Shown here: piece after piece, positions 411 to 18,672 of the stretch | Position numbering within the stretch: position 1 is the stretch's first letter | Layout of the letters: each line of letters opens with the position of its first letter | Source of the DNA: an uncultured Cellulomonas sp. | GTDB lineage: Bacteria; Actinomycetota; Actinomycetes; Actinomycetales; Cellulomonadaceae | DNA length: 54,522 bases | NCBI RefSeq assembly: GCF_947494015.1 | Contig: NZ_CANLTL010000020.1 | Coordinates: forward strand, 1 to 54,522 | Direction: 5' to 3' | Position numbers and translations under genes: made by a program | Notes under the pieces: generated by a model | Seen by the model: the letters and a program-made list of their open reading frames with translations, nothing else | Databases searched by the model: none | What the model was told of the DNA's origin: nothing

Positions 411-445
411 ACTCTATCGCGTTCCACTTACACCGGCACGACTAT
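411..445 (-). promoter_or_regulatory. Repeated promoter motif, copy A
   Basis: On the minus strand this reads ATAGT, then TGCCGGTGTAAGTGG, then the -10 box TAGAGT. The distance from ATAG to CCGG is 9 bases and from CCGG to the -10 box 20 bases, as in copies C, D and E. It serves the Cys-rich gene, leaving a leader of about 34 bases with a ribosome site. Confidence 0.7.
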
Positions 446-473
446 TAGTCCTTGTCGTTACCGATCTGTGATG

Positions 474-516
474 TTGCGTCTGTCGGTGGCGTCTGATAGT
501 TTTACCGGTATCAGGT
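474..516 (+). promoter_or_regulatory. Repeated promoter motif, copy B (double arrangement)
   Basis: Two overlapping elements precede the MoxR gene. TTGCGT (474-479), 17 bases including TGTCGGTGGCG, then TAGTTT (497-502) make a plausible -35/-10 pair. The conserved ATAGTTTTACCGGTATC (496-512) overlaps that -10 and the predicted transcript start, rather than the -35 as in the other copies. No -10 stands 20 bases after its CCGG. This copy could therefore act as an operator or be a second, weak promoter. Confidence 0.6.
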
Positions 517-535
517 TAACGAGAGGAACCGGCTC

Positions 536-1666
536 ATGTCGAAGTCACTGCCCGCCATCGCCCGCCAGAGCGACCCGCTGCTGACCGTCCTGCGCGCCGC
601 AGGACGCGCCGGGGTGTCCACGCTCCTGTGGGGGCCGCCGGGGGCCGGCAAGTCCTCGCTGTTCGAGTCCCTGGCCCGCAGCGAGGGACTGCCGATGGAG
701 ACGGTCATCGCCTCGCTGCGCGAGCCGAGCGACTTCGCCGGCCTTCCCGTGATCCGCGACCACGGCGTCGAGCTGGCCCCGCCCGCCTGGGCGCAGCGCC
801 TGGCCGAGGCCGAGGACGGCTACCTGTTCCTGGACGAACTGACCACCGCGCCCCCGGCCGTCCAGGCCGCGCTGCTGCGGGTCGTGCTGGACCGCGCCGT
901 AGGCGACCTCGTCCTGCCGCGCGGCATCCGCGTGGTCGCCGCCGCCAACCCGCCCGACCAGGCCGCGGACGGCTGGGACCTGCCCGCCCCCCAGGCCAAC
1001 CGGTTCCTGCACCTGACCTACACCCCGAGCCTGGACGGCTGGCTCGACGGCATGACCACTGGCTTCGGCGTCCCCGTCTCAGGCCGCGTCCTGGACTACT
1101 CCCCCGTGACCCGCGCCGCCACCCGCGCACAGGTCGCATCCTTCATCCGCACCCGCCCCGACCTGCTGCACGCCTTCCCCCGCGACGACGCCTCCGCAGG
1201 CCGCGCCTGGCCCTCCCGGCGCACCTGGACCATGACCGCCGACGTGCTCGCCATGCTCGACCCCGACGACACCCCCGCCACCCTCCTGGCCGCATCCGGC
1301 CTGGTCGGAGAGGGCGCAGCGGTCGAGTTCATCGCCTGGCGCCAGGACAACGACCTGCCCGACCCCGCCGACGTGCTGGCCGACCCCACCACCGTGGCCT
1401 GGGCCGACCTCGAGCCCTCCCGCGCCTGGGCGATCCTCACCGCCGTCACCGCCCACGCCACCGCCGACCGCACCAAGACCGGCTGGGCCGCCGCCTGGAA
1501 GCCCCTCGCGGTCGCCGCCACCGCCGGACTGCAGGACGTGGCCGCAGCCAACGCCCGCGCGCTGCTGCGCTCGCGGCCCAAGGACACCTACCCGCCCGCC
1601 AGCGCCAAGGCCTTCCTGGCCGTCCTGGCCGACGCCGGGCTGATCACCACCGGAGAGCAGGCATGA
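536..1666 (+). CDS. MoxR-type AAA+ ATPase
   Basis: This 376-residue protein is a AAA+ ATPase of the MoxR/RavA type, which act as chaperones that remodel or load partner proteins, usually with a VWA-domain protein encoded next door. Visible motifs are Walker A GPPGAGKS (33-40), Walker B YLFLDE (96-101), a sensor-1 Asn in AAAN (135-138) and the arginine of QANR (153-156). The C-terminal half, about residues 180-376, is alpha-helical and not recognised. The ATG at 536 has GAGAGGA upstream. The stop overlaps the ATG of the next gene (ATGA), which encodes exactly the expected VWA partner, so the two are co-translated. It is cytosolic by sequence. The substrate cannot be told. Confidence 0.9.
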   Translation: MSKSLPAIARQSDPLLTVLRAAGRAGVSTLLWGPPGAGKSSLFESLARSEGLPMETVIASLREPSDFAGLPVIRDHGVELAPPAWAQRLAEAEDGYLFLDELTTAPPAVQAALLRVVLDRAVGDLVLPRGIRVVAAANPPDQAADGWDLPAPQANRFLHLTYTPSLDGWLDGMTTGFGVPVSGRVLDYSPVTRAATRAQVASFIRTRPDLLHAFPRDDASAGRAWPSRRTWTMTADVLAMLDPDDTPATLLAASGLVGEGAAVEFIAWRQDNDLPDPADVLADPTTVAWADLEPSRAWAILTAVTAHATADRTKTGWAAAWKPLAVAATAGLQDVAAANARALLRSRPKDTYPPASAKAFLAVLADAGLITTGEQA

Positions 1667-2865
1667 ACGCCGTCACCATCCGCCCGCTGACCGACGCCGA
1701 GCGCGACCGCCTCGCCACCGCACGGCTGGTCGCCGTCGAGTCCGCCCCCTACCTCGCCCACGCGCTGTTCTCCGCGCGGCCGTTGGCCGCCGTGGGCCTG
1801 GGCACCTTCGCGGTGGACCGTCACTGGCGGCTCTACATCGACCCCGACACCCTGACCGAGTGGGGACCGCAGGTTGCGGGCGGTGTGCTGGTGCACGAGG
1901 CCAACCACCTGATCCGCGACCACGCCGGGCGCGCCGACGCGCTGCCCGGCCCCGTGGACCACGACCGCTGGAACTACGCCACCGACGCCGCGATCAACGA
2001 CGACCTGCTGCGCGCCGGGCTGGCCCTGCCCGACGGGGTGGTCACCCCCGCCGCCCTCGGGCTGCCCGACAGCGGCGTGGAAGAGGCCTACTACGCCGCC
2101 CTGCCCGACCAGCCCCCGCAGACCGAGCCCGGGTGCGGTTCGGGCGCGGGCGACCCCACCCAGCCGTGGGAGCCCGCTCCGGACGCCCCCGGCACACCGG
2201 GACTGGACGACGGCCAGGTCACCATCGCCCGCCGCCGCGTGGCCGAGTCCGTCCGCGAGCACGCCAGCGCCGGGCGCGGCACCGTCCCGGCCGGGCTGCG
2301 CCGCTGGGCCGAGGCCGAGCTGACCGCCCCTGAGGTCCCCTGGCGCAAGGTGCTCGCCGGACTCGTGCGCCGCACCGCCGCCCTGGCCGCAGGCCGCATC
2401 ACCTACACCTACGCCCGCCCCGGACGGCGGCGGCTGCCCGGCATCGTCACCCCCGCCATGCGCGCCCCCAAGGTCACCGCCGCCGTGGTCATCGACACCT
2501 CGGGAAGTGTGACCCCCGACGAACTCGCCGCCGCGCTGCGCGAGGTCAACGGCGTCATCAAGGCCGTGGGCGGGTCCGTGCGCGTCATCACCTGCGACGC
2601 CCAGGCCAGCGCCGCCCACGTCGTGCGCGCCGCCACAGACGTGCGCCTGGACGGCGGTGGCGGAACCGACATGCGCGTCGGCATCACCGCCGCCGAGGCC
2701 CTGCGCCCGGCCCCCGACGTCACGGTGGTCATCACCGACGGCGAGACACCCTGGCCCGCCGCCCCCGGCCGCTCATCGCTCATCGCGGTGCTGACCCGCG
2801 CGCGTCACCTGCCCCACGTCCCGGCATGGGCGCGCGCACTCGCGATCACCGCGCCCAATAGTTAA
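1663..2865 (+). CDS. VWA-domain protein with zinc-metallopeptidase-like N-terminus (DUF2201 type)
   Basis: The 400-residue product has two parts. The N-terminal part carries HEANH (78-82) followed by a conserved NYATDAAIND stretch (104-113), the pattern of the predicted metallopeptidase domain of DUF2201-type proteins. The C-terminal part is a von Willebrand A fold with the MIDAS motif DTSGS (278-282) and a later GGTDM and ITDGE. This pairing with a MoxR ATPase is a known arrangement, in which the ATPase is thought to act on or through the VWA protein. The ATG at 1663 overlaps the MoxR stop by four bases. The last codons run into copy C of the repeated motif. The actual substrate and whether the HExxH site is active are unknown. 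Confidence 0.85.
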   Translation: MNAVTIRPLTDAERDRLATARLVAVESAPYLAHALFSARPLAAVGLGTFAVDRHWRLYIDPDTLTEWGPQVAGGVLVHEANHLIRDHAGRADALPGPVDHDRWNYATDAAINDDLLRAGLALPDGVVTPAALGLPDSGVEEAYYAALPDQPPQTEPGCGSGAGDPTQPWEPAPDAPGTPGLDDGQVTIARRRVAESVREHASAGRGTVPAGLRRWAEAELTAPEVPWRKVLAGLVRRTAALAAGRITYTYARPGRRRLPGIVTPAMRAPKVTAAVVIDTSGSVTPDELAAALREVNGVIKAVGGSVRVITCDAQASAAHVVRAATDVRLDGGGGTDMRVGITAAEALRPAPDVTVVITDGETPWPAAPGRSSLIAVLTRARHLPHVPAWARALAITAPNS

Positions 2866-2892
2866 TCCGGTGTCAGTGGTGTGTGGTATCGT
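2858..2892 (+). promoter_or_regulatory. Repeated promoter motif, copy C
   Basis: ATAGTTAATCCGGTGTCAG, GTGG and the -10 box TATCGT (2887-2892), with the standard 9- and 20-base distances. It begins inside the last codons of the VWA gene and drives the two unknown genes that follow, with a leader of about 30 bases containing GAGAGGA. Confidence 0.7.
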
Positions 2893-2928
2893 GGGGGTAC
2901 ACCGAGAGAGAGGGAGAGGAACCCCGCG

Positions 2929-3174
2929 ATGCACACCACCAACACCGACCACCCGGCCGCCGCGGACGATCTCGACCCCGCCCTGATCGCCCACGCCACC
3001 CCCCTCATCGAGGCCGCCGGCACCGACCTCACCACCGTCCTGCAGCACCTCGCCGCACCAGCCGGCGGCCCGCACGCCACACCCGCATCCCTGCAGGCCG
3101 GGTGGGACCTGCCCGAGCTCGCAGCCCTGACCCCCGACACCCTTCCCATCGACACCGACGGGACCAACCAGTGA
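2929..3174 (+). CDS. Small acidic hypothetical protein
   Basis: This 81-residue protein is not recognised. It is acidic, rich in Ala, Thr, Pro and Asp, has no Cys, no membrane segment and no motif. The ATG at 2929 follows GAGAGGA by about 10 bases; an upstream ATG in frame at 2881 lies within the promoter and before the predicted transcript start. Its stop overlaps the GTG start of the next gene by four bases, so the pair is translationally coupled and probably functions together. The gene is under copy C of the repeated motif. Confidence 0.7.
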   Translation: MHTTNTDHPAAADDLDPALIAHATPLIEAAGTDLTTVLQHLAAPAGGPHATPASLQAGWDLPELAALTPDTLPIDTDGTNQ

Positions 3175-4325
3175 GCCGCCAGCTGCTCGACCTCGGCGCT
3201 CGTCTGCGCGCCGCCACCGACTCCCAGCCCGTCGCCCTCGCCGCCTACGCCCCGGCCCTGCCCCCCACCGCCCCCGTCGCGGTCGCCCTCGACCCCGACG
3301 GACACTCCCTGCGCGCCACCGACGGCACCACCACCACCAGCGGCACCGGACGCCAGGCGCTAATCGCCCTGGACGACCTCGGCATCACCCTGGACGCGCC
3401 CACCTACCGCACCCTGGTCATCACCAGCCCCGCCGCGCTCAGCGCCCTGACCACCCTTGCGCGGACCTACCCCAGCGCCGCCTGCGCCCCGGTCATCGCC
3501 TGGTGGGACCAGCGCGCCGACCACCCGGGCACCGGAGCCGTGCACGCCGTCATCGCCACCGCCCGTCAGCGCTGGGTCCTGGGGGTGGCCCCCGACCGTG
3601 AGCGCGACCTGGACACCTGGCTCACCTGGCTGGGCATCACCAGCACCGGCCCCCAGGCTCTGCTCGACCTCGCCCGCGCCAGCACGGCCGGATCGACCCT
3701 GCCGGGCCTGCTCGACGCCGCCGGGGCCGACACCCGCGCCTGGGAGCGGCACCAGCAGCGCATCGCGGCCGGACGGCCATGGCTGGCCCCGGACAACCGC
3801 GCCGATGCCGCCCTGGGGCTGGCCAGCCGCTCCCACGCCACCGAGCACTACGCCTCCCTGCGCCTGGACGACCCGCTCGTCGCCCATGCCGCCACTACCG
3901 ACGGCACCGTCGTCACCGGCCACCTCACCCACCACGACACCGCGAGCATCACCGTGCGCGCCGCCCGCCCGCTCAGCCGCCTGCGCGTCGGCTCCGAGGT
4001 CACCGGGTGGATCGGTGCCGCGCTCGACGCCCACGCCGGACCGGCCTACGTGACCGGCCGCGTGCTGACGGCCACCGTCGGCACCGACGCCGCGTTGACC
4101 CTGACCGTGGGGGACTTCGCCAAGCGCCCCGCCCAGCACCCCGCCGGGACCATGCTCACCCTGCGCCCGCGCCGGGTGGACCCCTTCATGCAGGCCAACG
4201 GCCGCCGCCTCATGGCGGGCAACTTCCACCGCAGCGGGAACTGGCTCGCCGGGCGCGGCAGGCCGGTCCTCACGCGCTCCGACGTGCCCCTCGACGTCGT
4301 GGTCGCCGCCGCTGACCCGGACTGA
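3171..4325 (+). CDS. Hypothetical protein, 384 aa
   Basis: No family was recognised for this 384-residue protein. It looks soluble: no signal peptide, no long hydrophobic segment. Its N-terminal 110 residues alternate short beta-like segments, followed by a helical middle section and a C-terminal beta-rich section from about residue 235 (a region with VTGHLT, VGSEVTGWIG, VTGRVLTATV) that could be an OB- or SH3-like barrel, which is only an impression. The GTG at 3171 overlaps the stop of the preceding small gene. A 70-base gap and promoter copy D separate it from the helicase. Its place among ATPase, helicase and LPD29-like genes suggests a DNA-related role, but this is inference. Confidence 0.75.
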   Translation: MSRQLLDLGARLRAATDSQPVALAAYAPALPPTAPVAVALDPDGHSLRATDGTTTTSGTGRQALIALDDLGITLDAPTYRTLVITSPAALSALTTLARTYPSAACAPVIAWWDQRADHPGTGAVHAVIATARQRWVLGVAPDRERDLDTWLTWLGITSTGPQALLDLARASTAGSTLPGLLDAAGADTRAWERHQQRIAAGRPWLAPDNRADAALGLASRSHATEHYASLRLDDPLVAHAATTDGTVVTGHLTHHDTASITVRAARPLSRLRVGSEVTGWIGAALDAHAGPAYVTGRVLTATVGTDAALTLTVGDFAKRPAQHPAGTMLTLRPRRVDPFMQANGRRLMAGNFHRSGNWLAGRGRPVLTRSDVPLDVVVAAADPD

Positions 4326-4395
4326 ATCCGCCCGGGCCGGCCCTCGCCGCCGAACTCGGCAGTGGACGCTCCGGAGACACTCCCGCGCAGCCCTC

Positions 4396-4430
4396 ATAGT
4401 TTGCCCGGTATCGGTGGCGCGTGCTATCCT
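4396..4430 (+). promoter_or_regulatory. Repeated promoter motif, copy D
   Basis: ATAGTTTGCCCGGTATCGG, GTGG and the -10 box TATCCT (4425-4430). TTTGCC stands in -35 position. Only six bases (cagagc) separate the -10 box from the ATG of the helicase gene, so the transcript is predicted to start on the A of the start codon. Confidence 0.75.
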
Positions 4431-4436
4431 CAGAGC

Positions 4437-5702
4437 ATGAAGAGGACGACCACCGGGACCCCCGCCGCCGCCACCCAGGCGCCTGCACCGCGGCCCCCCG
4501 CCGAGCACCTGCGCAACCCGGTCCTGGCCCGCGCGCTGCTCGCAGTCTGGTCCGGTGACCCGGCCCTCGTCATCGACTCGCCTCCCGGGGCAGGCAAGAC
4601 CCACCTGAACACCCACCTTGCCCACCAGCTGCGTACCCGAGCCGGCATGACCGTCGCCATCGCCGCCCAGACCCGCGCCCAGGCCGCCGACGTCGCGCAC
4701 CGCACCGCCGCCACCGGCGCCGACACCGCGCTCCTGATCGGCGCGAACAACGACCGCCCCGCTGACACCGACCCCGCGATCCGCACCATGACCCCCCGGG
4801 CAATCGACCCCGGCGCGGGCATCGTCGTCGCCACCACCGCGCGCTGGACCTGGCTGCCTCACAACCGTCCCGTGCGCTTCGACGTGCTCCTGATCGATGA
4901 GGCCTACCAGCTGACCTTTGCCGACCTCGGCACCCTCGGGGCGATCGCGGACCAGTTCGTCCTGGTCGGAGACCCCGGCCAGATCGACCCCGTGATCACC
5001 GGCACCACCCGCCGGTGGGACACCTGGGCCAGCGGCCCGCATGTCCCCGCGCCAACGGCCCTCGCTGCCGCTCACCACGACGACGTGACCACGCTGCGCC
5101 TGCCGCAGACCTGGCGGCTCGGTCCCGCCACCACCGCGCTGCTCGCGCCCCTGTACCCCTCGCTGCCCTTCACCTCCGCCCGGCCCCCCAGCCACCTGAG
5201 CGACCACCGTGACCAGCCGCTGCCCGAGTACCACGCGCGCCCCATCACCATCACCGGCGGCACGCCCGACCCCGTGATCGCGGTCACGGCCGCAGACACC
5301 GCCCGTGACCTGCTCACCCGCACGCTGCACACCACGGCGGGAACCCGCCCGCTCGCACCCGAGGACGTAGCCGTCATCGCCCCCCACGTCGAGCAGGCCG
5401 CGCTCATCGCCGCCGCCCTGGCCGACCTGCCCGGGATCTTCGTCGGCACCATCAACCAGGCCCAGGGCCTCGAACGTCACGCCGTCGTCGCAGTCCACCC
5501 GCTCGCTGGTCACGCCGACGCGCTCGGCGTCGCCGCTGACCTCGGACGGCTGTGCGTAGCCCTGTCCCGCCACCGCTCCCACCTGACGGTGATCACCGAC
5601 AAGCACACACCCGCCGTCCTGGACCGCGCCCATCGCGACCAGCCGGGCACCCAGGCTGTCGTGGTCCACCAGCGCATCCTGGACAGCCTGCTGGCCGCCT
5701 GA
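4437..5702 (+). CDS. SF1-type DNA helicase/ATPase, probably leaderless
   Basis: The 421-residue product has superfamily 1 helicase motifs: Walker A SPPGAGKT (48-55), Walker B IDEAY (153-157), motif III VLVGDPGQIDP (175-185), an NQAQGLE stretch near residue 340 corresponding to motif V, and ALSRHR near 375 corresponding to motif VI. It is shorter than UvrD or RecD, with no large insertion domains or nuclease domain, and is close to the minimal AAA_12/DnaA2-like helicases carried by plasmids and phages. The ATG at 4437 follows the TATCCT -10 box by six bases, so there is no room for a ribosome site and translation should be leaderless. A role in handling incoming or replicating element DNA is inference. 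Confidence 0.85.
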   Translation: MKRTTTGTPAAATQAPAPRPPAEHLRNPVLARALLAVWSGDPALVIDSPPGAGKTHLNTHLAHQLRTRAGMTVAIAAQTRAQAADVAHRTAATGADTALLIGANNDRPADTDPAIRTMTPRAIDPGAGIVVATTARWTWLPHNRPVRFDVLLIDEAYQLTFADLGTLGAIADQFVLVGDPGQIDPVITGTTRRWDTWASGPHVPAPTALAAAHHDDVTTLRLPQTWRLGPATTALLAPLYPSLPFTSARPPSHLSDHRDQPLPEYHARPITITGGTPDPVIAVTAADTARDLLTRTLHTTAGTRPLAPEDVAVIAPHVEQAALIAAALADLPGIFVGTINQAQGLERHAVVAVHPLAGHADALGVAADLGRLCVALSRHRSHLTVITDKHTPAVLDRAHRDQPGTQAVVVHQRILDSLLAA

Positions 5703-5846: not shown

Positions 5847-5881
5847 ATAGATTTGCCGGTGTCGGTGGCGACTGGTACTCT
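5847..5881 (+). promoter_or_regulatory. Repeated promoter motif, copy E
   Basis: ATAGATTTGCCGGTGTCGG, GTGG and the -10 box TACTCT (5876-5881), with TTTGCC as -35. The gap from -10 to the ATG at 5888 is six bases, the same as in copy D, again predicting a leaderless message. The 144 bases between the helicase stop and this motif hold nothing else I can recognise. Confidence 0.75.
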
Positions 5882-5887
5882 GTAAGC

Positions 5888-6157
5888 ATGACGAGGAACA
5901 CCGCGCCCAGCGCCCCCGACGAGTTCACCGAGGCCTTGCCGCCTGAGTCGTGCCTCACCGCCGGGCCGGACTGCCAGGGACCGGTGGAGTACCGGACGCC
6001 GCTGTCCGGTACCGGTACCCCGTTCCCGCGGTGCGACCACCACTGGGAGGGCCGGCTCGACCTCGAGCACCAGCTGCGCGAGCGCTACCCCAGCACCGCA
6101 CCCGCGGACTTCGACCCGGCCTACGCCGGCGAGACCTGGGACGGAGACGACTGGTGA
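5888..6157 (+). CDS. Small Cys/His protein, probably leaderless
   Basis: This 89-residue protein is not assigned. Around residues 21-47 it has the pattern ESC, PDC, PRCDHHW, which could bind one zinc ion. The rest is acidic and hydrophilic and ends in DGDDW. The start is fixed by its position six bases after the -10 box of copy E; there is no Shine-Dalgarno sequence. Its stop overlaps the GTG start of the LPD29-like gene (GTGA), so the two are one unit. Similar small zinc-ribbon-like proteins are common in actinobacterial phages and plasmids, usually without known function. Confidence 0.75.
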   Translation: MTRNTAPSAPDEFTEALPPESCLTAGPDCQGPVEYRTPLSGTGTPFPRCDHHWEGRLDLEHQLRERYPSTAPADFDPAYAGETWDGDDW

Positions 6158-6540
6158 CCACCCCCGGCCCCACCGCACTTGAGCCGGCGCAGGTGCCCGC
6201 CGCCATCAAGCGCGACCTGCGGGCCGCGTTCCCCGGCGTCCGGTTCTCGGTGAGCCGCTCACGGGGCACAGGGTGGGCGTACATCAACGCGGCCTGGACC
6301 GATGGGCCTACCGAGGCGGCCGTCCGGCAGTCCGTGAGCGCATGGGCAGGCAGCCAGTGGTGCCAGGCCGTCCTCACCCACCGCAGCTACAGCCCGCAGG
6401 CTCACGCGTGGGCCCAGGCCGAGGTCGCCGCCCACCCCGGACGCTTCCAGGACGACAGCGACCCCTACGCCCGCGACAACGCACCCCACCGGCTCCTCGC
6501 CACAACCGACCTGCGCGACACCGCCCTTCCCTCGACCTGA
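6154..6540 (+). CDS. LPD29-like domain protein
   Basis: The 128-residue product resembles the LPD29 family (large polyvalent protein-associated domain 29). The signature is visible in residues 10-65: an IKRDLRAAFPGVRFSV segment, then INAAWTDGPTEAAV and an aromatic GSQWC. LPD domains occur in long polyvalent proteins of phages and conjugative elements that are thought to enter the new host along with the DNA; here the domain is stand-alone. The GTG at 6154 overlaps the stop of the upstream small gene. Being in a repeated-promoter unit next to a helicase suggests a role at entry or establishment, which is inference from family context. Confidence 0.7.
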   Translation: MTTPGPTALEPAQVPAAIKRDLRAAFPGVRFSVSRSRGTGWAYINAAWTDGPTEAAVRQSVSAWAGSQWCQAVLTHRSYSPQAHAWAQAEVAAHPGRFQDDSDPYARDNAPHRLLATTDLRDTALPST

Positions 6541-6822: not shown

Positions 6823-7158
6823 GTGGCCCAGAAAGTTCAGGTTCTGCTCATCGACGACGTGCATGGTGAGCCGGCGGACGAGACCGTCACCTTCGCGCTC
6901 GATGGGGTGTCCTACGAGATCGACCTGACAAGCGACAACGCCGCGGCGCTGCGAGAGGGCCTGACGACGTGGATCAGCAACGCTCGCCGAGTGGGGAGGC
7001 AGTCGAAGTCCACAACGTCACAGGCACCACGGCGCAGCAGCGGTGGGTCGAATGACGCTCAGGCCATCCGTGAATGGGCTCAGAGCCAGGGCATGACGGT
7101 CTCCGCTCGTGGGCGGATCTCCGCCGAGGTGAGGACCGCCTACGAGGCGGCTCACTAG
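6823..7158 (+). CDS. lsr2: Lsr2 family nucleoid-associated protein
   Basis: This 111-residue protein is an Lsr2 homologue, the actinobacterial xenogeneic silencer that binds AT-rich DNA and bridges it, functionally like H-NS. The N-terminal dimerisation half starts MAQKVQVLLIDD and includes the conserved FALDGVSYEIDL region. The C-terminal DNA-binding half contains a NDAQAIREWA helix and the SARGRIS minor-groove hook (about 94-100). Length and layout are typical. The GTG start has AGGAG seven bases upstream. On a mobile element such a copy may silence element genes or support the host protein. It is followed by a 22-bp perfect palindrome, then by the convergent NACHT gene. Confidence 0.93.
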   Translation: MAQKVQVLLIDDVHGEPADETVTFALDGVSYEIDLTSDNAAALREGLTTWISNARRVGRQSKSTTSQAPRRSSGGSNDAQAIREWAQSQGMTVSARGRISAEVRTAYEAAH

Positions 7159-7432: not shown

Positions 7433-10228
7433 TCACGGGGTGAGGCGGTGAGCGACAGGTACCCGCTCTCGTGCTCGCCACAGGAACGCCACGATGGCTG
7501 TACGGGCAGACCAGTTGTAGGGCTCGATCGCGTCGATGGCTTCGGCCACCCGGCCGAGAGCATCGTCGTATGTGAGCAGGGCGGCCGCGGCCTGGCCGGG
7601 TGTGATCCCCTCCGGGACGAGGAACTCCCCACGCGGACCCACGACCGTCCTGACGTGCCGTATCTCATCGACGAATCGGCCTTCGACGGACGTCCGGGGC
7701 CAATTGCGGACGTCGTCGGGAAGTGCGTCGGACAACCGAACCGTCGCGCCGGGCGTCCCTGGGCCAGTTGGCGGTGCCGTCGTTGGCTTGGTTGCCCGCA
7801 TCTGTCGTGCGCGCGCCGGTAGAACGCCCTGCTGGTCTGGTGCGGTCAGCCTCTCGAGCACAAGCGCGGCTGCCTCGTGTGCGCTCGGTGATCCGTCCCA
7901 GGCCCGCTGGAGGGCGGCGATGATCTTGAGACGTGCCGATTCATCGTCGCCGACCTCAGCGAGCACGTCGCCGAGACGGCCGGCTCCAAGGTTGGGTCCG
8001 GTCAGAATCTGCAGGGCGAGGTCGACCAGCAGCCGCAGGTGCTTCGGGCTCTTAGATGCCATGCCGTCGTCGAGGATGTCGATCGCCAGCCGGGGTGCCG
8101 TCTCGATGATGAGGCTGAACGTGTCGCTCGCGTCGAGCTCGCGCATCATGTGCAGCACCGGGTCGAAAAGCGGAGCACGATCTCGGTAGACGGCACCGAC
8201 GGCCAGTAGCCAGGTGTTGCGCCAGTGAGCCGAGGGCGCGATCACGCGCAGCCGCCCGATCACCTCATTGTCGAGCCCGTCGACCAGCGCGCAGGCGGCC
8301 ATGAACTCTTGGATGCTGCGCAGCTCGAAGCCGACCTGGTCCTTGCCCTTGGCTGTGACGAGGACGAGCCGATCGCGTGCTGCCCGCAGCAGGTCGCCCG
8401 CGAGCCTCTCCAGTGCGGCGCCCTTGTGGCCCTCTTTGGTGAGCCGGTCACGGATGACCATCTCGAAGTCCTGCGAGCTCAGGAGCGCCTCAGCCTCGCC
8501 GGCGCTCTCGCTCGCGACCTGCAGCCGCAGGCCGGTCGCCCGGTGGATCGCGTCGACGTCGGCCCGGCGCTCGGAGAGGACTGTCGCGAGGTAGTTCTTC
8601 TTCTGAACCTCGCGGTCATAGATCACGTCGTAGTAGTCCGCGAAGAGCGCAGCGCGGTCCTGCGGCGGCTTGGCGCGCCGCTCCAAGAGCAGCGACATGA
8701 TCATGACCTGCAGCGGGGAGCGCATCAGGCGTCGGGTGAGCTCGTTCGCTGCGGCGTCGGTGATGCGCTGCAGGACGGCCGACTTCTCGGCGTCCTCACC
8801 CATGCGCAACTCCGTCAGGCGCGATGCGTAGTCGACTGCCTGCTGGGCCGACAGAGGCACCAGCTCGAGCTTCCGGAATGAGGTCGGCAGCTCGTCGCTA
8901 TACCCCTGAGGGCGTGTGGTCGCGACGACGAGCAGATCGGCGTCCTCGGTGTGGGCCTGCTCAAGGAGTTGGTTGACCGCCGCAGCCACCGTCTCCCGCG
9001 CGGGCTTCGCGGCGACCTCGTCGTAGCCATCGAGCACGAGCAGCCACGGCCATGCCCGCAGCCATCCGCGCATGTCTCGCGCGTGGAAGGTTTCCCCGGT
9101 GCTCGCGCTGATGCGCTCGGCGAGGTAGCGGACAAGAGGGAGGTCTGCACCGCCACCGGCCAGATCCGCGTACTCGGCCAGATCGACTCTGACGGGCCAA
9201 CGCCGAGCACGAGGGCGAGGGATGCCAATCTCTTCAGCGCGACGGAGCGTGTCAGCGACCGCTGCTTGGACAGGCGGAGACTGTCCGTCGCGCTCGGCCA
9301 GCATGGTGGCCCTGTACAGCTGAGCGAGGAGGCGCCCCAGGGTGGTCTTGCCCTGCCCCGGGCCGCCAGTGACGAGGAAGTGGGGCTGGAGGTCGGCGCC
9401 CGCCAGCACGCTCGGGCGCAGCACTCGCTCACCCGCCGTCACGATGTGCGCGAGAGCGGCGAAGCTGTGGGCGAGCGGGTCGGGGTCGTCCGGGTGGCGC
9501 GCCGGCAGGTCTACTGCGACGTGCGCGAGATCGAGTTTCTGGTTGGCGACCTGGCCGGCTTCACCCAGGTTGATCTGCCCGCGGGTGATCAGCTCGGTGC
9601 GGGCGTGCTCCTCTAGGGCCCGTCGGATGTCCTCAACGCGCTGACCTAGGCCGGTCATCCGGCCGAGGTTGATCGCGGCCAGCACGTCACCGGGGGTGAT
9701 GAGCGCGTTGAACTGCTGCCGAACGTCGGCGAACCCATCGAGCAGGCGCTCGACTTTGGCGCGGTCCCAGACGGCGCAGTCCTTCAAGGGCCAATCGTGG
9801 GTCCGAGCTGCAGACCTGATCGTTCTGGTCGCCTCGTTCAGGCCACCGTCGACGGCGCCGCCCAGCCCGACGTTGGTGACGAACACGATGAACTCGGGCT
9901 TCGGCCCCTTCCGCTTCGTGCCCGGGTGGGCCCACTTGTCGAGCTCACGCCGGATCTGCGTGAGCAGCCACGTCTTGTTCGCGGCAGTCGACTGCAGCTG
10001 CTCGCGAAACTTGACCTGGAAGACGTGGTACCCGTCCCACGGAGCTGCGTGGTGGTGCTCGCCGTCTGCGGGCACCGCGCGACCCTCGAAGACCGCGTCG
10101 CGACCGCTGTCCGGGCCCGTCCCGAATACCTGGACCGTCGGCCCGTAAACCTTCAGCAGCAGCGCCTGCACGAGGTGCTCGAACTCGTGCGGTCCGAGAT
10201 CCTCGAGCCGGTAGGTCATGTCCACCAT
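7433..10228 (-). CDS. Nuclease-NACHT NTPase, probable NLR-like antiphage protein
   Basis: The protein is about 931 residues from the ATG at 10228 (another ATG is at 10219; the longer frame to 10465 reads through low-complexity Arg/Ala sequence and is unlikely). Residues 11-75 look like an Mrr-type PD-(D/E)xK nuclease: DSGRDAVFEG (40-49) followed by FQVKF (70-74), with the QxK variant. A NACHT-type STAND ATPase follows: Walker A GGPGQGKTT (288-296), Walker B LVLDGYDE (397-404) and TRPQGY after it. The last 500 residues are helical without obvious repeats and probably sense the trigger. This nuclease-plus-NACHT layout is that of bacterial NLR/Avs-like defence proteins, which cut DNA after detecting a phage protein. 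It appears to be a single-gene unit. Defence function is inferred from architecture. Confidence 0.85.
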   Translation of the reverse strand: MVDMTYRLEDLGPHEFEHLVQALLLKVYGPTVQVFGTGPDSGRDAVFEGRAVPADGEHHHAAPWDGYHVFQVKFREQLQSTAANKTWLLTQIRRELDKWAHPGTKRKGPKPEFIVFVTNVGLGGAVDGGLNEATRTIRSAARTHDWPLKDCAVWDRAKVERLLDGFADVRQQFNALITPGDVLAAINLGRMTGLGQRVEDIRRALEEHARTELITRGQINLGEAGQVANQKLDLAHVAVDLPARHPDDPDPLAHSFAALAHIVTAGERVLRPSVLAGADLQPHFLVTGGPGQGKTTLGRLLAQLYRATMLAERDGQSPPVQAAVADTLRRAEEIGIPRPRARRWPVRVDLAEYADLAGGGADLPLVRYLAERISASTGETFHARDMRGWLRAWPWLLVLDGYDEVAAKPARETVAAAVNQLLEQAHTEDADLLVVATTRPQGYSDELPTSFRKLELVPLSAQQAVDYASRLTELRMGEDAEKSAVLQRITDAAANELTRRLMRSPLQVMIMSLLLERRAKPPQDRAALFADYYDVIYDREVQKKNYLATVLSERRADVDAIHRATGLRLQVASESAGEAEALLSSQDFEMVIRDRLTKEGHKGAALERLAGDLLRAARDRLVLVTAKGKDQVGFELRSIQEFMAACALVDGLDNEVIGRLRVIAPSAHWRNTWLLAVGAVYRDRAPLFDPVLHMMRELDASDTFSLIIETAPRLAIDILDDGMASKSPKHLRLLVDLALQILTGPNLGAGRLGDVLAEVGDDESARLKIIAALQRAWDGSPSAHEAAALVLERLTAPDQQGVLPARARQMRATKPTTAPPTGPGTPGATVRLSDALPDDVRNWPRTSVEGRFVDEIRHVRTVVGPRGEFLVPEGITPGQAAAALLTYDDALGRVAEAIDAIEPYNWSARTAIVAFLWRARERVPVAHRLTP

Positions 10229-10246
10229 CTTGCCGTCCGGCTCAAT

Positions 10247-10276
10247 CGGGTACGTGTCCGACGCACGCGTCGTCAA
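10247..10276 (-). promoter_or_regulatory. Possible promoter of the NACHT gene
   Basis: On the minus strand TTGACG (10276-10271), an 18-base spacer and TACCCG (10252-10247) precede the ATG at 10228. The -35 box is good and the -10 box weak. The rest of 10277-10483 holds no gene I can support. Confidence 0.35.
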
Positions 10277-10483
10277 CTCTTGACCTGCGGTTGGGCGCGC
10301 GCTGCGGGCACGGCCGGGCCTCGCGAGCCGGTGCACCCGACCGTCGGCACCGGGCGAGGAAAGAGCAGCCGGTGCGTAGGCGACGGACCGAGTACGACTG
10401 GCGCTCGGGCTATGGAGAGCTGGACGCGAGACGGTCGCACGCGCGCTCGATGAGTAGCCGAGCACGTTCGCCTTGTGCTGCTG

Positions 10484-10803: not shown

Positions 10804-11697
10804 TCACTGCGCAGCTGCGACTGGTGCGCCGTCTTGCCCCTGGCCGGGCACGGCCCGGGCGACAGCCGCCTCGGCCCGGATGTTGGGGTGGACGCGGGGT
10901 CCTGGGGACTCTGCCTCTTGAGCCGCTGCGGCACGGGCAGCCGCGGCCTTGGCTCGCGCGGCCGCACGAGTCTTCGCCGGCGTCCAGTCCCACCCGGGCA
11001 GCGCCGCGATCGCGTCGACCGTCTCGGAGGGCAGCCGGCCAGCTGCGTACCGCCCGCGCACGTACTCCGCTCGCTTGCCGATGGGTACCTGGACGTCGTC
11101 GATCTGCGCCACGGTGCTCAGACGCACCTGACTGGCATCGCGGGACGGGTCCTGCGCGATCCACGCCTGCATGGCGCTGATGAACTCCTCAAGGCGCGTC
11201 TTGCGCTGCTCGAGCGCACCCGGGATCGCCGCGAGCTCGCGGCGCTGGGCAGTGCTCAGCTCGGCCGAGGTTGCGCGCTGCTGGCGCAGCCATCGCGCAG
11301 CCACAGGGTGCGCGGTCTCCAGGCCGTCCAGAGTGCCGTGCTCATCGGCGTATGCGCGCACGGTCTGCAGCTGGGTTGTCCAGGTCTGCTCGCTACGGGG
11401 CGCGAAGCCCGACCACGACCAGCCCGGGCGGCCCTCGAGCTCACGCGCCCGGTCGGCACTGAGCTTGCCGGTGCGGTGCTCGTGCCGTCGCGTGGTCAGC
11501 CGCAGCCCCAGTGGGTACGGCTTACCGTCCACGAGCCGACTGGTGGCCTGCTGCGGCACGTAGGCGCTGCCGTGCTGCTCGACCCACCAGTCGAGCTCAG
11601 CCAGCAGCTGCGCCCACGCATCGCGCTTGCCTGCGGGCGCCGGCTCGACGACGTCAGCGGGCGTGCCCTGGTCGGCAGTGAACGCGTCGATGCTCAT
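10804..11697 (-). CDS. Helicase-associated (HA) domain protein
   Basis: This 297-residue protein carries tandem helicase-associated-type repeats of about 65 residues: WAQLLAELDWWVEQHG...YPLGLRLTTRR...W around 28-98, and a second and third set ending in PGWDW near 240. HA repeats are three-helix modules with aromatic anchors that probably bind nucleic acid and are common in actinobacterial plasmid and phage proteins. No helicase motif is present. The C-terminal 50 residues are Ala-rich. The ATG at 11697 is preferred: it follows AGAGAGG, and the in-frame GTG at 11733 would lie in the promoter motif F. Function beyond nucleic-acid binding is unknown. Confidence 0.75.
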   Translation of the reverse strand: MSIDAFTADQGTPADVVEPAPAGKRDAWAQLLAELDWWVEQHGSAYVPQQATSRLVDGKPYPLGLRLTTRRHEHRTGKLSADRARELEGRPGWSWSGFAPRSEQTWTTQLQTVRAYADEHGTLDGLETAHPVAARWLRQQRATSAELSTAQRRELAAIPGALEQRKTRLEEFISAMQAWIAQDPSRDASQVRLSTVAQIDDVQVPIGKRAEYVRGRYAAGRLPSETVDAIAALPGWDWTPAKTRAAARAKAAAARAAAAQEAESPGPRVHPNIRAEAAVARAVPGQGQDGAPVAAAQ

Positions 11698-11723: not shown

Positions 11724-11758
11724 TCATCCTCACCTACCTCATACACCGGCGCAACTAT
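11724..11758 (-). promoter_or_regulatory. Repeated promoter motif, copy F
   Basis: On the minus strand ATAGTTGCGCCGGTGTATG with the standard 9-base ATAG-to-CCGG distance. The hexamer 20 bases downstream, GGATGA, is a poor -10 box, so this copy is less certain as a promoter, but its place just upstream of the HA-domain gene fits the pattern of the other copies. Confidence 0.55.
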
Positions 11759-11843: not shown

Positions 11844-12050
11844 GTGCACAAGGACTGGAAGCGGCTTGAGGCGGCAGCCGTGGAGCAGGGTTTCACCAGC
11901 AAGGAGACGAAGAAGGGCCGCTTCTGGCTATCGCCGGACGGGGTGCACCTGGTGCTTGTTCACCACACCCCGAGTGACCGAAGGGCGATGGAGAACACCA
12001 TCCGCGAGTTCCGCCACGCAGGACTCATCTGGCCCCCGCCGAAGAGATAG
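11844..12050 (+). CDS. HicA-like (YcfA) small protein, possible toxin
   Basis: This 68-residue basic protein has the size and order of HicA-type mRNA interferases: an N-terminal helix (KDWKRLEAAAVEQGF), a beta pair with FWLSPDGVHLVLVHH containing the Gly-His pair typical of the double-stranded-RNA-binding fold, then a C-terminal helix. Catalytic His candidates are in GVHL and HHTPS. The GTG at 11844 is used because the ATG at 11802 overlaps the -10 box. No HicB with a usual partial RNase H fold is adjacent; the next plus-strand gene, after a hairpin, encodes a helix-turn-helix protein that could serve as a non-standard partner. The HicA assignment is tentative. Confidence 0.6.
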   Translation: MHKDWKRLEAAAVEQGFTSKETKKGRFWLSPDGVHLVLVHHTPSDRRAMENTIREFRHAGLIWPPPKR

Positions 12051-12058
12051 CAGCCACA

Positions 12059-12114: not shown

Positions 12115-12669
12115 ATGACCGTCTTCACCGCGCGGGTCGAGTGGAGACTCGCACCGGGCCACGACATCACCGACACCCTCCCGGACATCGTCAACGCCAT
12201 CGCCGACTACCACGCGGTTGGCGCGGTCGACCTTGCAGCGAACACCGCCGCCATCACCTTGACCGTGGACGGGGCCACCCTCGAGCTCGGCGCCCAGGAG
12301 GCGCTGCGCACGGTTGCCGTGGCCGTCGTCTCCCACGGTGGCCAGCAGTTCGTCCCCGCTGCGCTCAGCCTCACCGAGGAGACGCTGGCCACCCAGCGCA
12401 GCGACCCGCCCACCTGGAACCTGCCGGCGCTGATCACGCTCACCGAGACGGCCGAGCTCGGGGGCGTCTCCCGCCAGCGCGCCAGCCAGTGGGCCGCACG
12501 GGCTGACTTCCCTCAGCCGGCAGCCCGGACAGCGCACGGGGCGCTCTACATCCGCCCCCAGGTCGAGACGTGGCTCGCGCGCTTATCTCGCACCCCGGGC
12601 AGACCCAGGAACAGCAGCACCGCCGCTACGCCGGTCGGCGCTCGAAATACTCCTGCAGAGCTTCGGTGA
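12115..12669 (+). CDS. Helix-turn-helix DNA-binding protein
   Basis: The 184-residue product has an N-terminal beta-rich domain (1-90), beginning TVFTARVEWRLAPGHD, of unknown type and a C-terminal helix-turn-helix at about 103-150: ITLTETAELGGVSRQRASQW followed by FPQPAA and a GALYIRPQVETW wing. This is the excisionase/MerR-like layout used by many plasmid and phage regulators. The ATG at 12115 is 30 bases after the hairpin; no strong ribosome site is seen. The last 44 bases overlap the convergent RHH gene. It could be a regulator of its neighbours or the partner of the HicA-like protein; both are inference. Confidence 0.7.
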   Translation: MTVFTARVEWRLAPGHDITDTLPDIVNAIADYHAVGAVDLAANTAAITLTVDGATLELGAQEALRTVAVAVVSHGGQQFVPAALSLTEETLATQRSDPPTWNLPALITLTETAELGGVSRQRASQWAARADFPQPAARTAHGALYIRPQVETWLARLSRTPGRPRNSSTAATPVGARNTPAELR

Positions 12670-12847
12670 CGATGTCCTGCTTGTTGCGGGACTTGGTCTG
12701 CCCGGCGCCATTGGCTGCTCGCGCGACCAAAGCGCTGAGCTCACCGGGAATGCGCACGTTGAGCTGCACCAGCGGCTCCGGCTTCGGGTCAGGGCCTCGC
12801 CAGACCACCGGACCAGTGCGCACCCGCACCCGCTCGACATCCGGCAT
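12626..12847 (-). CDS. Ribbon-helix-helix DNA-binding protein
   Basis: This 73-residue protein has a CopG/Arc-type ribbon-helix-helix in its C-terminal half: the strand VQLNVRIPGEL, then helix A (SALVARAANGAG) and helix B (NKQDIVTEALQEYF). Such dimers repress promoters on plasmids or serve as antitoxins or centromere-binding factors. The ATG at 12847 has AAGGGG upstream; the longer start at 12877 has none. Its 3' end overlaps the convergent helix-turn-helix gene by 44 bases. The 110-base gap to the divergent gene at 12958 should contain promoters for both. No toxin gene is beside it on the same strand. Confidence 0.75.
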   Translation of the reverse strand: MPDVERVRVRTGPVVWRGPDPKPEPLVQLNVRIPGELSALVARAANGAGQTKSRNKQDIVTEALQEYFERRPA

Positions 12848-14084: not shown

Positions 14085-14313
14085 GCCTGGCGCCTGTAGG
14101 GACTCGTCCGACTTGTCCGTTGCCCGGTCAGGTTGCGGCGCAATGCGAGTACCGATGGCCACTATTGCTTGCAGATGTCGACAGCACGCCGGCGACCAAG
14201 TCTGCGCCGCCGCCGTGACGCGCGGCTACTTATCCACCGAACGGGCCTGGCCGTACTTCGCAGCGTGCCCGGCGACAAAGTAACGACAGAGAAGCTAAAC
14301 CTGGGGGTACGTC
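14085..14313. other. Intergenic, no feature recognised
   Basis: This 229-base gap shows no convincing ORF, RNA gene or long repeat. It ends with the leader of the membrane-protein gene, including GGGGGT just before its ATG. Confidence 0.5.
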
Positions 14314-15225: not shown

Positions 15226-15239
15226 GGACCTACGCACCG

Positions 15240-15569: not shown

Positions 15570-15572
15570 GGC

Positions 15573-16019: not shown

Positions 16020-16275
16020 CCGCCAGAGCCTCGATCCGGTCTGGTCGGTATCCCGACCAGACCACCGAGCCGGCCTGGACGACCGGCGCCTGCAGGAAGC
16101 CCATCCCTGCGACCAGGTCCCGTGCGGCGGCGTCCGTGGAGACATCGACCTCCCGGAACTCCACGCCCAGCCGCCGCAGCGCCCGGGTGGTCGCATCACA
16201 CTGCACGCAGCCCGGCTTACTCCAGACCGTGACGCTCACCGCGTCCGAGGCCTGGTCGATCGTGGCTGTCGTCAT
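16003..16275 (-). CDS. NrdH-like glutaredoxin
   Basis: This 90-residue protein is a thioredoxin-fold redoxin of the NrdH/glutaredoxin type. The active site is CVQC (23-26) after VTVWSKPG; the cis-proline loop is QAPVV, and WSGYRPD near the C-terminus matches the NrdH signature WSGFRPD. NrdH proteins pass electrons to ribonucleotide reductase or reduce other thiol partners. The ATG at 16275 has GGAGAGGAG at the right distance. No ribonucleotide reductase gene is near. Instead it sits between the FtsK-type coupling ATPase and two unknown genes, so it may act on transfer proteins or supply reducing power after entry. The 66-base gap upstream holds a dyad shared with the transfer operon start. 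Confidence 0.85.
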   Translation of the reverse strand: MTTATIDQASDAVSVTVWSKPGCVQCDATTRALRRLGVEFREVDVSTDAAARDLVAGMGFLQAPVVQAGSVVWSGYRPDRIEALAGELVG

Positions 16276-16307
16276 CGCACGTCTCCTCTCCATCGGGTAT
16301 CTCACCT

Positions 16308-16320
16308 GCAGTAACTGCGC
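16308..16320. promoter_or_regulatory. Dyad GCAGTAACTGCGC upstream of the redoxin gene
   Basis: The 13-mer contains a near-perfect dyad (GCAGT-A-ACTGC). The identical 13-mer occurs at 27143-27155 upstream of the first gene of the transfer operon. It lies 33 bases before the redoxin ATG and could be an operator. Confidence 0.45.
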
Positions 16321-16341
16321 AGCGCCACGCCTTCGGGACAT

Positions 16342-18441
16342 CTAGTCCTCGTCGGGCTCGCCCAGTGGGCGCCGGACGCTCAGGACGTGGCTGTCGTCGA
16401 TCACGAGATCACCGGCCTCACCGTCGTCGCTGCGCCAGGCCAGGCACATGCTGTCCTCGCCGTCGTCGAGGTCGGCCGCCTCGAGGACGGCCCAGTGGTC
16501 GACCTGCTCGTCGACGAGGACAAGGTCCCCGACCTGCACCCGTCCGGCCGCGACGGACCGCGCCGGGCTGTACCCCTCGAACAGGTCATCAGCGCCGTCG
16601 CCCTGGACGTAGTCACTCGAGCCGACGTCGTCGACGTCGACGTCGGCCGGCTCGGCGGTCTCGACCGCCGGGTGAGCACCGGTGCGGCCGCGCAGCAACG
16701 CAGCCAGCGGCGGCCCGCCCGCCGGCCGGCTCGTGGTGCCGGTGGGCACCAGGCGTGAGTCCAGCACCTGCTGCCACTCCCCGAGCGTGCCTCCATCCAG
16801 ATCCTGGTCGTCACCGAGCTGAACCTCCAGCGCCGGGTGGATCGCAGCGGTCGGACGCAGCCGCTCGAGCAGCGCGAGGTCGGCGGCGTTCTCGTCGCGC
16901 GCGGCGCGGCGCGGATCGGGAGTCCACAGCACCTGCATCTCGGTGACCCGCTCGTCCTCGGTGATGCCGGTGCCGCGGCCGCGGATGCTGCGCGGGACCG
17001 AGACCCCCAGGTACGGCGACTCCCACATCATCTGCGCACCCTGCGGAGAGAGCCGCCCCAAAGACAGCCGTGAATCGAAGTTGTCACGCATCGACCCGGT
17101 CATGAACTCCGCATCTGGGCGCTGCGTTCCCAGCACCAGGTGGACGCGCCCAGAGCGCCCCTTCTCCGCGATCGCCGCGACCCAGTCGAATACCGGGCAC
17201 TTCGTGGGCATCCCCTTGACCTTGACCCCCGTGTACCAGGCGGTCACCAGGCGGTGGAAGTTGCGGAACTCGTCGAGCACCAGCACCACGGGCTCGAAGT
17301 CGGACTCGTCGGCGGTGCCGTCCTCGATCTCCGCGTACCGCTGCTCCATCAGCTCGTGCGCGGCGTAGATGACCGCGACCTGGTCGACGACGTCGGTGGC
17401 CACAATCTGCACGTTGGGCCACTGGCGCAGACCCATGAACTCGATCCGCTTGGGGTCGCAGACCCACACCCGCCAGTCCCGCCTGGCCGTCTCCATCACC
17501 ACACCGTTGATGGCCACGGTCTTGCCGGTACCCGTCTTCCCGCACACGATCAGATGCGGGCCAGATCCCGACATGTTCCAGAAGATCTCGTTGCCGTCCT
17601 CGTCGACCCCCAACGGGATGCGCATCAGGTTGGCCGGGGTGATCTTCGCCGGCACGCGCGGGACGGCCGTGGGCATGGTCGGCCGCAGCTCGAACCGGAC
17701 CGTGTCCTCGGTCAGCGACCACCGCGCGCGCCACCGACCGGGCAGCAGCGCAGTGATCGAGTTCTCGATGAAGCTGCGGGCGTGCTGGCGGGCGACCTTC
17801 GGGCCCAGGGCGTGCCGGATGGCGATCGCGACGACCTCTTCCTCGGCGGGGTCCAGCTCGAGGTTGACGCTCGCGCCCTCCCCGAAGATCCCGCGCACCA
17901 CCCGGTCAGCTCGCTCGACGACGGGGTGCGCGCTCGGCGGCGCCGGCGCGACCCTCAGCTCCAGGCGGCACCGCTGCTGATCGAAGCTCGCAACCTCGTA
18001 CCGGCCACCCAACCTCCGGGTGGCGATGTCGGCGATCCGGGTCGTCCAGTCGACGGTGTCCACCGCCCCCGAGCCGTACCGGATCTGCACCACGACCGGG
18101 TGCCCACCGTCGCCGCGCCGCGCCCACCGCCGAACTCGCACCGTGTCCGGCGCCGGCGCCCGCAGACCCAGGTGCGGCAGCACCGCGGCGAGGAACTGCG
18201 CCACGAGCTGCTGACGACGCACCTCACGCATCCCACTGGCCACCACGAGCGTCACCACCACCACGCCCACCACGCCGGCCACCATCGCCTCGGTCCGCCG
18301 GCCGGTCACCTCCGCGGCACCGACTGCTACCGCGGCCGCCGCCAGGCACCACAGAGCATGACCGGGCCACGCCCGCTCCACCGGGGGCACGGGCGCGAAC
18401 CCAGAGGGCGCACCAACCGGTGCTGCTGCCTTCGTGAACAT
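16342..18441 (-). CDS. FtsK/SpoIIIE-type coupling ATPase (TcpA-like)
   Basis: The 699-residue protein has two membrane segments (29-44, 52-69), a cytosolic middle domain, then an FtsK/HerA motor: Walker A GKTGTGKT (301-308), a WVCDPKRIEF stretch, Walker B VVLVLDE (385-391) and the GTQRPD element after it. Such ATPases are the coupling proteins of Gram-positive conjugation systems (TcpA, TraB), docking DNA to the transfer channel. The last 120 residues are acidic and end in a small beta domain (VQVGDLVLVDEQVDHW) of unknown use, not typical of TcpA. The ATG at 18441 has AGAGGAG. It is separated from the upstream transfer genes by 227 bases, so it may have its own promoter. Confidence 0.88.
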   Translation of the reverse strand: MFTKAAAPVGAPSGFAPVPPVERAWPGHALWCLAAAAVAVGAAEVTGRRTEAMVAGVVGVVVVTLVVASGMREVRRQQLVAQFLAAVLPHLGLRAPAPDTVRVRRWARRGDGGHPVVVQIRYGSGAVDTVDWTTRIADIATRRLGGRYEVASFDQQRCRLELRVAPAPPSAHPVVERADRVVRGIFGEGASVNLELDPAEEEVVAIAIRHALGPKVARQHARSFIENSITALLPGRWRARWSLTEDTVRFELRPTMPTAVPRVPAKITPANLMRIPLGVDEDGNEIFWNMSGSGPHLIVCGKTGTGKTVAINGVVMETARRDWRVWVCDPKRIEFMGLRQWPNVQIVATDVVDQVAVIYAAHELMEQRYAEIEDGTADESDFEPVVLVLDEFRNFHRLVTAWYTGVKVKGMPTKCPVFDWVAAIAEKGRSGRVHLVLGTQRPDAEFMTGSMRDNFDSRLSLGRLSPQGAQMMWESPYLGVSVPRSIRGRGTGITEDERVTEMQVLWTPDPRRAARDENAADLALLERLRPTAAIHPALEVQLGDDQDLDGGTLGEWQQVLDSRLVPTGTTSRPAGGPPLAALLRGRTGAHPAVETAEPADVDVDDVGSSDYVQGDGADDLFEGYSPARSVAAGRVQVGDLVLVDEQVDHWAVLEAADLDDGEDSMCLAWRSDDGEAGDLVIDDSHVLSVRRPLGEPDED

Positions 18442-18637
18442 CGACGTTCTCCTCTAGTCGCGTGTGATCTGAGCTGTACTGCTGGCCGCTCGGTAGGCCT
18501 CACCGGCCTCGTTGTGCGGTTATCCCTGCGTTGTTGCCGGTTGCCCGCCACTTGACACCAGGGTTACGCTCGCGCAGCCGACGAAGGAGTGCAGGAGCGA
18601 GCGAGACCCAGGCGCCAACCGACTCACCCTTTTATCA

Positions 18638-18672
18638 ATAGTTTTTCCGGTGTCGGATACGGGTGTTGTCAT
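18638..18672 (+). promoter_or_regulatory. Repeated promoter motif, copy G (no gene downstream on its strand)
   Basis: ATAGTTTTTCCGGTGTCGG with the 9-base ATAG-to-CCGG distance and TGTCAT (18667-18672) in -10 position. It points into the 3' end of the minus-strand hydrolase gene, with no plus-strand ORF behind it. It may produce an antisense transcript, act as a protein-binding site, or be a leftover of rearrangement. The rest of 18442-18637 has no recognised feature. Confidence 0.55.

Follow-up and report, generated by a model that had tools for sequence, protein, structure and literature searches.

A repeated motif on a Cellulomonas plasmid contig read as a putative PafBC damage promoter overlapped by a plasmid-specific site

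What controls the transcription units near one end of a plasmid contig from an uncultured Cellulomonas sp. (assembly GCF_947494015.1, contig NZ_CANLTL010000020.1, here C20)? We analyzed positions 1 to 54,522 of this contig (the window), in which a sequence-only reading had reported seven copies, A to G, of a 35-bp promoter-like motif that it attributed to a regulon built into the element. Our analyses indicate that the motif consists of two overlapping signals. Its 3' part, TGTCRGTG-N8-TAnnnT, corresponds to the promoter described for the DNA-damage regulator PafBC (RecA-NDp), and its 5' part, ATAG-N5-CCGGTRT, which we term O, appears to be a separate, plasmid-specific site. The regulon is real and, in our reading, driven by an already described host promoter on which the plasmid site is overlaid; the activator is most likely the host's PafBC, which responds to single-stranded DNA (ssDNA), and not a dedicated one. 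To our knowledge, no site like O has been described.

The repeated motif

All seven copies were recovered at the places reported. A search with ATAGTTTTGCCGGTGTC, allowing up to three mismatches, gave exactly seven matches in the window versus 0.02 expected from shuffled sequences, and the nine-base distance from ATAG to CCGG was constant in 7/7 copies. The pattern [ACT]TAG-N5-CCGGT[GA]T found the same seven sites and none other (mean of 0.03 and maximum of 1 in 100 shuffles). A GTGG, along with a TAnnnT box twenty bases past CCGG, was seen in copies A, C, D, and E, in agreement with the sequence-only reading. Across the 4.28-Mb genome, ten sites match the 17-mer with up to three mismatches, seven of them on C20, and the reversed control has none. 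An eighth copy, with two mismatches, is on contig C28, and the remaining two matches (on contigs C4 and C7) have three mismatches, start with ATGG and ATGT and are chance-like. An equal frequency in the host chromosome had been named as a finding that would speak against a regulon; the 17-mer is not spread there. The copies are associated with promoters and define a set of co-controlled units, as had been proposed, but to say that nearly all transcription units in the first 12 kb follow a copy goes too far, as neither the Lsr2 gene (6823) nor the NACHT-type gene (7433-10465) has one. The two signals at each copy are as follows.

411..432, minus strand: one-mismatch PafBC-type core, TGTAAGTG-N8-TAGAGT, at copy A; the ATG of a small open reading frame (ORF), 155-370(-), lies 40 nt downstream
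429..445, minus strand: O element of copy A (motif search)
481..502, plus strand: putative PafBC promoter (exact match, TGTCGGTG-N8-TAGTTT) at copy B; the AAA/MoxR gene begins 33 nt downstream
496..512, plus strand: O element of copy B; its ATAGTTT contains the -10 of the PafBC promoter at 481-502
2858..2874, plus strand: O element of copy C (motif search)
2871..2892, plus strand: putative PafBC promoter of copy C, exact
4396..4412, plus strand: O element of copy D (motif search)
4409..4430, plus strand: PafBC-type core (TATCGGTG) at copy D, with one mismatch where the orthologue in Cellulomonas marina is exact
5847..5863, plus strand: O element of copy E (motif search)
5860..5881, plus strand: putative PafBC promoter (exact match) at copy E; the ATG at 5888 follows after 6 nt
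11742..11758, minus strand: O element of copy F, without a PafBC core; before the gene of a helicase associated (HA) domain protein
18638..18654, plus strand: O element of copy G, without a PafBC core; between M23-peptidase and FtsK-like genes (Pfam)

A putative host damage promoter overlaid by a plasmid site

Excerpts of the literature on PafBC, from which all papers are cited here, give its motif as TGTCGG-N10-TA-N3-T, also with TGTCAG (PMC8151990), and state that PafBC is activated by ssDNA, that PafB contacts a -26 motif and that the housekeeping sigma factor is used (PMC11804915). They also report that recA and uvrA are PafBC-regulated and that the motif extends to other Actinobacteria (PMC8223512). 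The sequence-only reading knew of no described motif of this kind; the GTGTCRGTGG...TAnnnT part, however, matches the published TGTCRG-N10-TA-N3-T (PMC8151990). Its suggestion of a dedicated activator or sigma factor is accordingly unsupported, as the activator of the published motif is a host protein working with the housekeeping sigma factor.

The core TGTCRGTG-N8-TAnnnT is exact at 481, 2871, and 5860 of the window and has one mismatch at 432(-) and 4409, and the published form gives three exact matches, with two others that deviate at one base of the 8-base core. These five cores precede five of the eight units checked, at 220 nt or less from the listed starts; the 220 nt ahead of the unit that starts near 11844 contain none. 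The copy D core is only 6 nt before the helicase ATG, making this gene near-leaderless. Genome-wide there are 25 exact matches to TGTCRGTGN8TANNNT and none to its reversed control, and the window, which is 1.3% of the genome DNA, holds three of them (binomial P=0.004). We read 19 distinct sites among the 25 matches, three of them in the window; chromosomal cores among them stand before recA, uvrA, radA, and dnaE (families checked), and the other twelve chromosomal sites read have no family assignment. A WYL search of the host genome gave three matches, of which two lie side by side, and the one protein tested from this pair matches a PDB chain named PafBC (6sj9, E 2.2e-53). Taken together, the motif match, the cores before repair genes and the host PafBC identify the 3' half as, in all likelihood, the host's own damage promoter. 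These promoters resemble the mycobacterial PafBC/RecA-NDp promoter in having the same motif, also found before recA, uvrA, radA, and dnaE, in a host that encodes PafBC, but differ in standing before plasmid genes and in being overlapped by a second, plasmid-specific site; their inducibility is putative. The LexA SOS box, GAAC-N4-GTTC, has no match in the window or in C28.

Four identical putative PafBC promoters, TGTCAGTGGCTCCTCGTAGACT, were observed on contigs C2, C3, C14, and C26 of the host genome. The two that we read precede near-identical proteins, presumably DUF222/HNH proteins, and the same protein type is found elsewhere behind a variant promoter.

Every PafBC core in the window overlaps O (3/3 exact, 5/5 with up to one mismatch), and none of 200 dinucleotide shuffles reached three. 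In copies A, C, D, and E the two sites share the TRTC bases. At copy B, in a feature that the sequence-only reading had not noticed, the PafBC-type promoter is displaced upstream and the ATAG of O is itself the -10. There is no overlapping core at F, at G, in the C28 copy or in the C. marina orthologue of F, and in the non-composite copies (six rows) TAG, CCGGT, and a later T are invariant. If the T of TAnnnT is taken as -12, O spans about -41 to -25 at four copies (A, C, D, and E) and about -13 to +4 at B, and O is found in these two different registers to the promoter both in the window plasmid and in the C. marina plasmid. In either position O would block the promoter and, therefore, the simplest reading of the two positions is that O is a repressor operator rather than an activator site. 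The copies are mostly intergenic, occur in both orientations and are mostly clustered near one end. O is not clearly palindromic, as the best symmetric alignment of a 12-copy profile is only 0.12 per pair above chance pairing.

We consider it likely that these regions are composite control regions, in which a host PafBC damage promoter is combined with a plasmid-specific O repressor site on a plasmid bearing a type IV secretion system (T4SS). Once bound to ssDNA, host PafBC would allow transcription from TGTCRGTG-N8-TAnnnT by RNA polymerase carrying the housekeeping sigma factor, and a plasmid protein binding the non-palindromic O would keep the promoters off in an established host. DNA damage or ssDNA would switch them on, and on a newly arrived plasmid no repressor would be in place. 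What is read from sequences comprises both motifs and the way they overlap, the PafBC genes of the host with their likely regulon, and the conservation described below; ssDNA activation is taken from the papers, and we infer repression through O, its binder and expression on entry.

An arrangement of this kind has a known counterpart in the KorA/KorB operators of RK2, short sites that are repeated over the plasmid, overlap several promoters and also stand before replication-type and transfer genes. O is like these operators in its seven plus one copies, five overlapping PafBC cores and others before replication-type and transfer genes, and unlike them in its lack of clear symmetry and in that the promoters beneath it are putative host damage promoters. 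No Kor homologue was identified.

The controlled module and its relatives on other plasmids

The genes behind copies B to E form a block of MoxR-AAA, VWA, and helicase genes for which we know of no function. Together with the HA-domain gene they are arranged as follows.

536..1666, plus strand: MoxR-like AAA ATPase gene (Pfam)
1663..2865, plus strand: VWA-like/DUF2201 protein gene (Pfam)
2929..3174, plus strand: small protein gene, the first after copy C; no Pfam match
3171..4325, plus strand: conserved module protein gene; orthologues in the C. marina plasmid (G187), genome G246, pXCEL01 and pCPRO01
4437..5702, plus strand: SF1-type helicase/ATPase gene (Pfam); relatives on 46 plasmid records
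5888..6157, plus strand: first gene of the unit after copy E (unit start listing)
6154..6540, plus strand: LPD29-domain protein gene (Pfam)
10804..11697, minus strand: HA-domain protein gene (Pfam HA), candidate O-binding regulator; O upstream

The closest plasmid that we found, a C. marina contig (G187:C26), has segments collinear with the window over the first 41 kb. On it, an exact PafBC core stands ahead of each of four genes, those of the AAA, small, and helicase proteins and one divergent from the HA gene, and 4/5 of its listed units have a core with up to one mismatch. Five of the 26 exact PafBC matches of the C. marina genome are on this contig, which makes up about 1.5% of the DNA. 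O is kept there at B, at D, and before the HA gene, and at C one base of CCGG is changed. A third genome, G246, has 3/7 of its exact cores on plasmid contig C4, none of them before module genes; a variant with one mismatch, TGTGGGTG, precedes its VWA and small genes.

The O element itself appears narrow in range, since an exact scan of a genome collection (84,980 species, from which the window's own genome was perhaps excluded) found the composite form in the C. marina contig only. The 17-mer with up to two mismatches has matches in 26 of 149 genomes, the window's own genome included and C. marina outside that set; those beyond its own genome look scattered, and the reversed control has matches in eight genomes. 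A scan of viral contigs for O was empty.

The predicted PafBC control reaches more widely. We compared stretches of ten named plasmids, counting as units the starts that we listed and as a hit a core with up to one mismatch within 220 nt. Across whole records the exact core occurs 10 times in M. alvei pJCM12272, nine times each in M. avium p1-JPH1 and an M. vanbaalenii plasmid, twice in an M. intracellulare plasmid, once in pRHL2 and twice in pFiD188; there are none in pBD2, pREL1, pXCEL01, and pCPRO01, and the reversed control gave none in all ten. Around the module, in about 15-17 kb each, the published form has four matches in M. alvei, six in M. avium, seven in M. vanbaalenii, and five in M. 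intracellulare (one on the opposite strand), counts matched by none of 200 shuffles per plasmid. A core precedes 4/5 units in M. alvei, 3/7 in p1-JPH1, 6/6 in M. vanbaalenii, and 2/4 in M. intracellulare. The scan with the published form also gave one match on pCPRO01, away from the module, and its letter-reversed control matched once, on pXCEL01. On the six rhodococcal, Xylanimonas, and Cellulosimicrobium plasmids the module lacks PafBC cores and, therefore, PafBC control is not essential to it; as predicted from these counts, such control is recurrent, not universal, and wider than O.

Several features of these plasmids were recorded in passing. The leaders of pXCEL01 and pCPRO01, considered as a parallel case, were dropped since no PafBC core precedes the module there. 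CGAAC-N4-GTTCG boxes are present at two places on pXCEL01 and at one on pCPRO01 in the stretches examined, none of them preceding the module. A plasmid-specific repeat on pXCEL01 comprises nine copies of GGGC[GA]GC[AG]TGGGGT and three of a shared leader, several before transcription units. By eye, the mycobacterial plasmids have leaders of 55-97 nt with inverted repeats between the PafBC promoter and the ribosome site; that of M. alvei has a TGTAGCAG loop between CCGG-type arms, and loop and stem vary among these plasmids.

Competing explanations and the plasmid context

Since the position of O in copies A, C, D, and E (about -41 to -25) is a normal one for an activator, O might be the site of a plasmid activator that acts with PafBC or replaces the -35 contact. 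We regard this as unlikely based on the fact that O at B and in the C. marina orthologue covers the -10 and the start, where activators seldom act, and on the lack of an overlapping PafBC core at F, G, and C28. Somewhat less plausible again is a centromere-like or structural site for a partition or condensation protein, with the promoter overlap being secondary. Several mostly intergenic copies in both orientations, clustered near one end and with one upstream of the C28 replication-type gene, would suit such a role, but the placement of all window PafBC cores (5/5, up to one mismatch) in one of two registers to O is more orderly than expected of scattered centromere sites, and the ParA-like gene at 28382 is about 10 kb from the nearest O copy.

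The dedicated sigma factor or activator of the sequence-only reading would have to read the whole 35-bp motif, which is indeed promoter-like and, apart from the two chance-like matches, confined to C20 and C28. This we consider very improbable: apart from PF00158 (Sigma-54-activator), which matched the MoxR-like AAA domain, Pfam searches of 40 chosen window reading frames found no sigma factor or activator family, the 3' half corresponds to the host PafBC promoter, and the halves separate at B, F, G, and C28. Least credible of all are Frpo-like single-strand leading-region promoters active on entering ssDNA. The motif region does lie near one contig end with several units on one strand, and one strand of region F folds with a z of -1.9 (8/200 shuffles as good), but neither strand folds better than shuffles at A/B, C, D, or E (eight folds, z -0.5 to +0.6). 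A hairpin promoter of the Frpo type was rejected, there being no strong hairpin among ten folds (z -1.9 to +0.6, the lowest being the one strand at F). Co-activation by WhiA/WhiB, whose site has an invariant GTGTC (GACAC reversed), was also rejected; GTGTC is present in 3/7 window copies, and no WhiB family was found among the 40 scanned reading frames.

The composite of host PafBC promoter and plasmid repressor site thus remains our preferred explanation, and the leading candidate for the repressor is the HA-domain protein. O lies upstream of its gene in both the window plasmid and the C. marina plasmid, which suggests self-control, and HA repeats could read a long, non-symmetric site. The protein has no sequence match in the PDB, and no paper on the helicase associated domain was found in the open-licence literature. 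A second candidate is the ORF at 12626-12847(-), which has no family match and, among the compared plasmids, a relative only in C. marina.

Several observations weigh against this explanation. The core of copies A and D carries one mismatch, and a first search is reported to have found the PafBC motif not conserved in Streptomyces venezuelae (PMC9380542, excerpt). No PafBC core stands before the module on pXCEL01, pCPRO01 or four rhodococcal plasmids (0/16 units). In C. marina the region ahead of the replication gene is without O, the stretches read in G246 contain no O although that genome encodes an HA protein, and a fold search with the HA model (pLDDT 71, pTM 0.40) gave a best E of 0.24, which is not significant. 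Relaxases of PF03432 and PF08751, the only two families searched, were not found on C20 or C28.

The extent of the plasmid bears on the number of O copies it carries. Contig C28 is 15.4 kb and encodes a 1761-aa replication-type protein with the eighth O copy upstream of its gene. A homologue of this protein in G246 is on contig C4, which also holds the collinear T4SS/Tad/module region, and C28 would therefore be a second piece of the same plasmid; C28 and C20 are probably one plasmid, in which case all eight copies are on it. In C. marina the homologue falls into two parts, each at the end of a further contig (C7 and C23). The window encodes VirB4-like, TcpC-like, FtsK-like, and M23 proteins (Pfam), our VirB4 and T4SS assignments being a reading of the AAA_10 and TcpC matches. 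The PF03432 and PF08751 relaxases of the host genome are on contigs C16 and C5, and neither family was found anywhere in the G246 genome. A mostly intergenic stretch adjoining copy G (18534-18618) has 85% identity to C. marina 21670-21756, above that of its surroundings, and is possibly the transfer origin.

Expression on plasmid entry is plausible, and the activation of PafBC by ssDNA fits it, entry as ssDNA being hypothetical for this plasmid; were the plasmid transferred in another form, its PafBC promoters would serve the damage response only. In enterobacteria early expression of leading regions and SOS induction by conjugation are known (PMC11541004, PMC2958807, excerpts). The module would be like these leading regions in being a plasmid gene block perhaps expressed as DNA enters, and unlike them in that an ssDNA-sensing activator would replace LexA or hairpin promoters. 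Excerpts of the PafBC papers describe it as a regulator of chromosomal repair genes (PMC11804915, PMC9380542, PMC8223512, PMC8151990), and within the open-licence literature, as far as the titles listed and the excerpts tell, we found no description of PafBC control of plasmid genes or of a link with plasmid transfer. That PafBC promoters precede units of the conserved block on six plasmids, which belong to two distant groups of actinobacteria, suggests use of this second, LexA-independent damage pathway by plasmids. We tentatively extend this, with more doubt than conviction, to the idea that large actinobacterial plasmids use PafBC as an arrival sensor, entering ssDNA inducing the AAA-VWA-helicase block until the O repressor accumulates and shuts it; the O lock would be lineage-specific and the PafBC promoters would range from Cellulomonadaceae to mycobacteria. 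The promoters offer a direct handle on how actinobacterial plasmids time expression on arrival, and control of the MoxR-AAA/VWA/helicase block in this way suggests that it functions in establishment or under DNA stress.

The plasmid may be linear. Two contigs of different genera start on the same homologous base (window 1-64, G187:C26 1-63, and G246:C4 1-120 compared), and by eye all three contig starts have short palindromes, several with GCTGCGC-type loops. C28 has a weak match to the Tpg telomere protein (22 bits versus a cut-off of 90). Elsewhere in the window, the Lsr2 protein (6823-7158), the NACHT/Mrr-like protein (7433-10465), and a ResIII-type protein (43511-48846), which adjoins an N4/N6 methylase, are probably products of restriction or defence genes.

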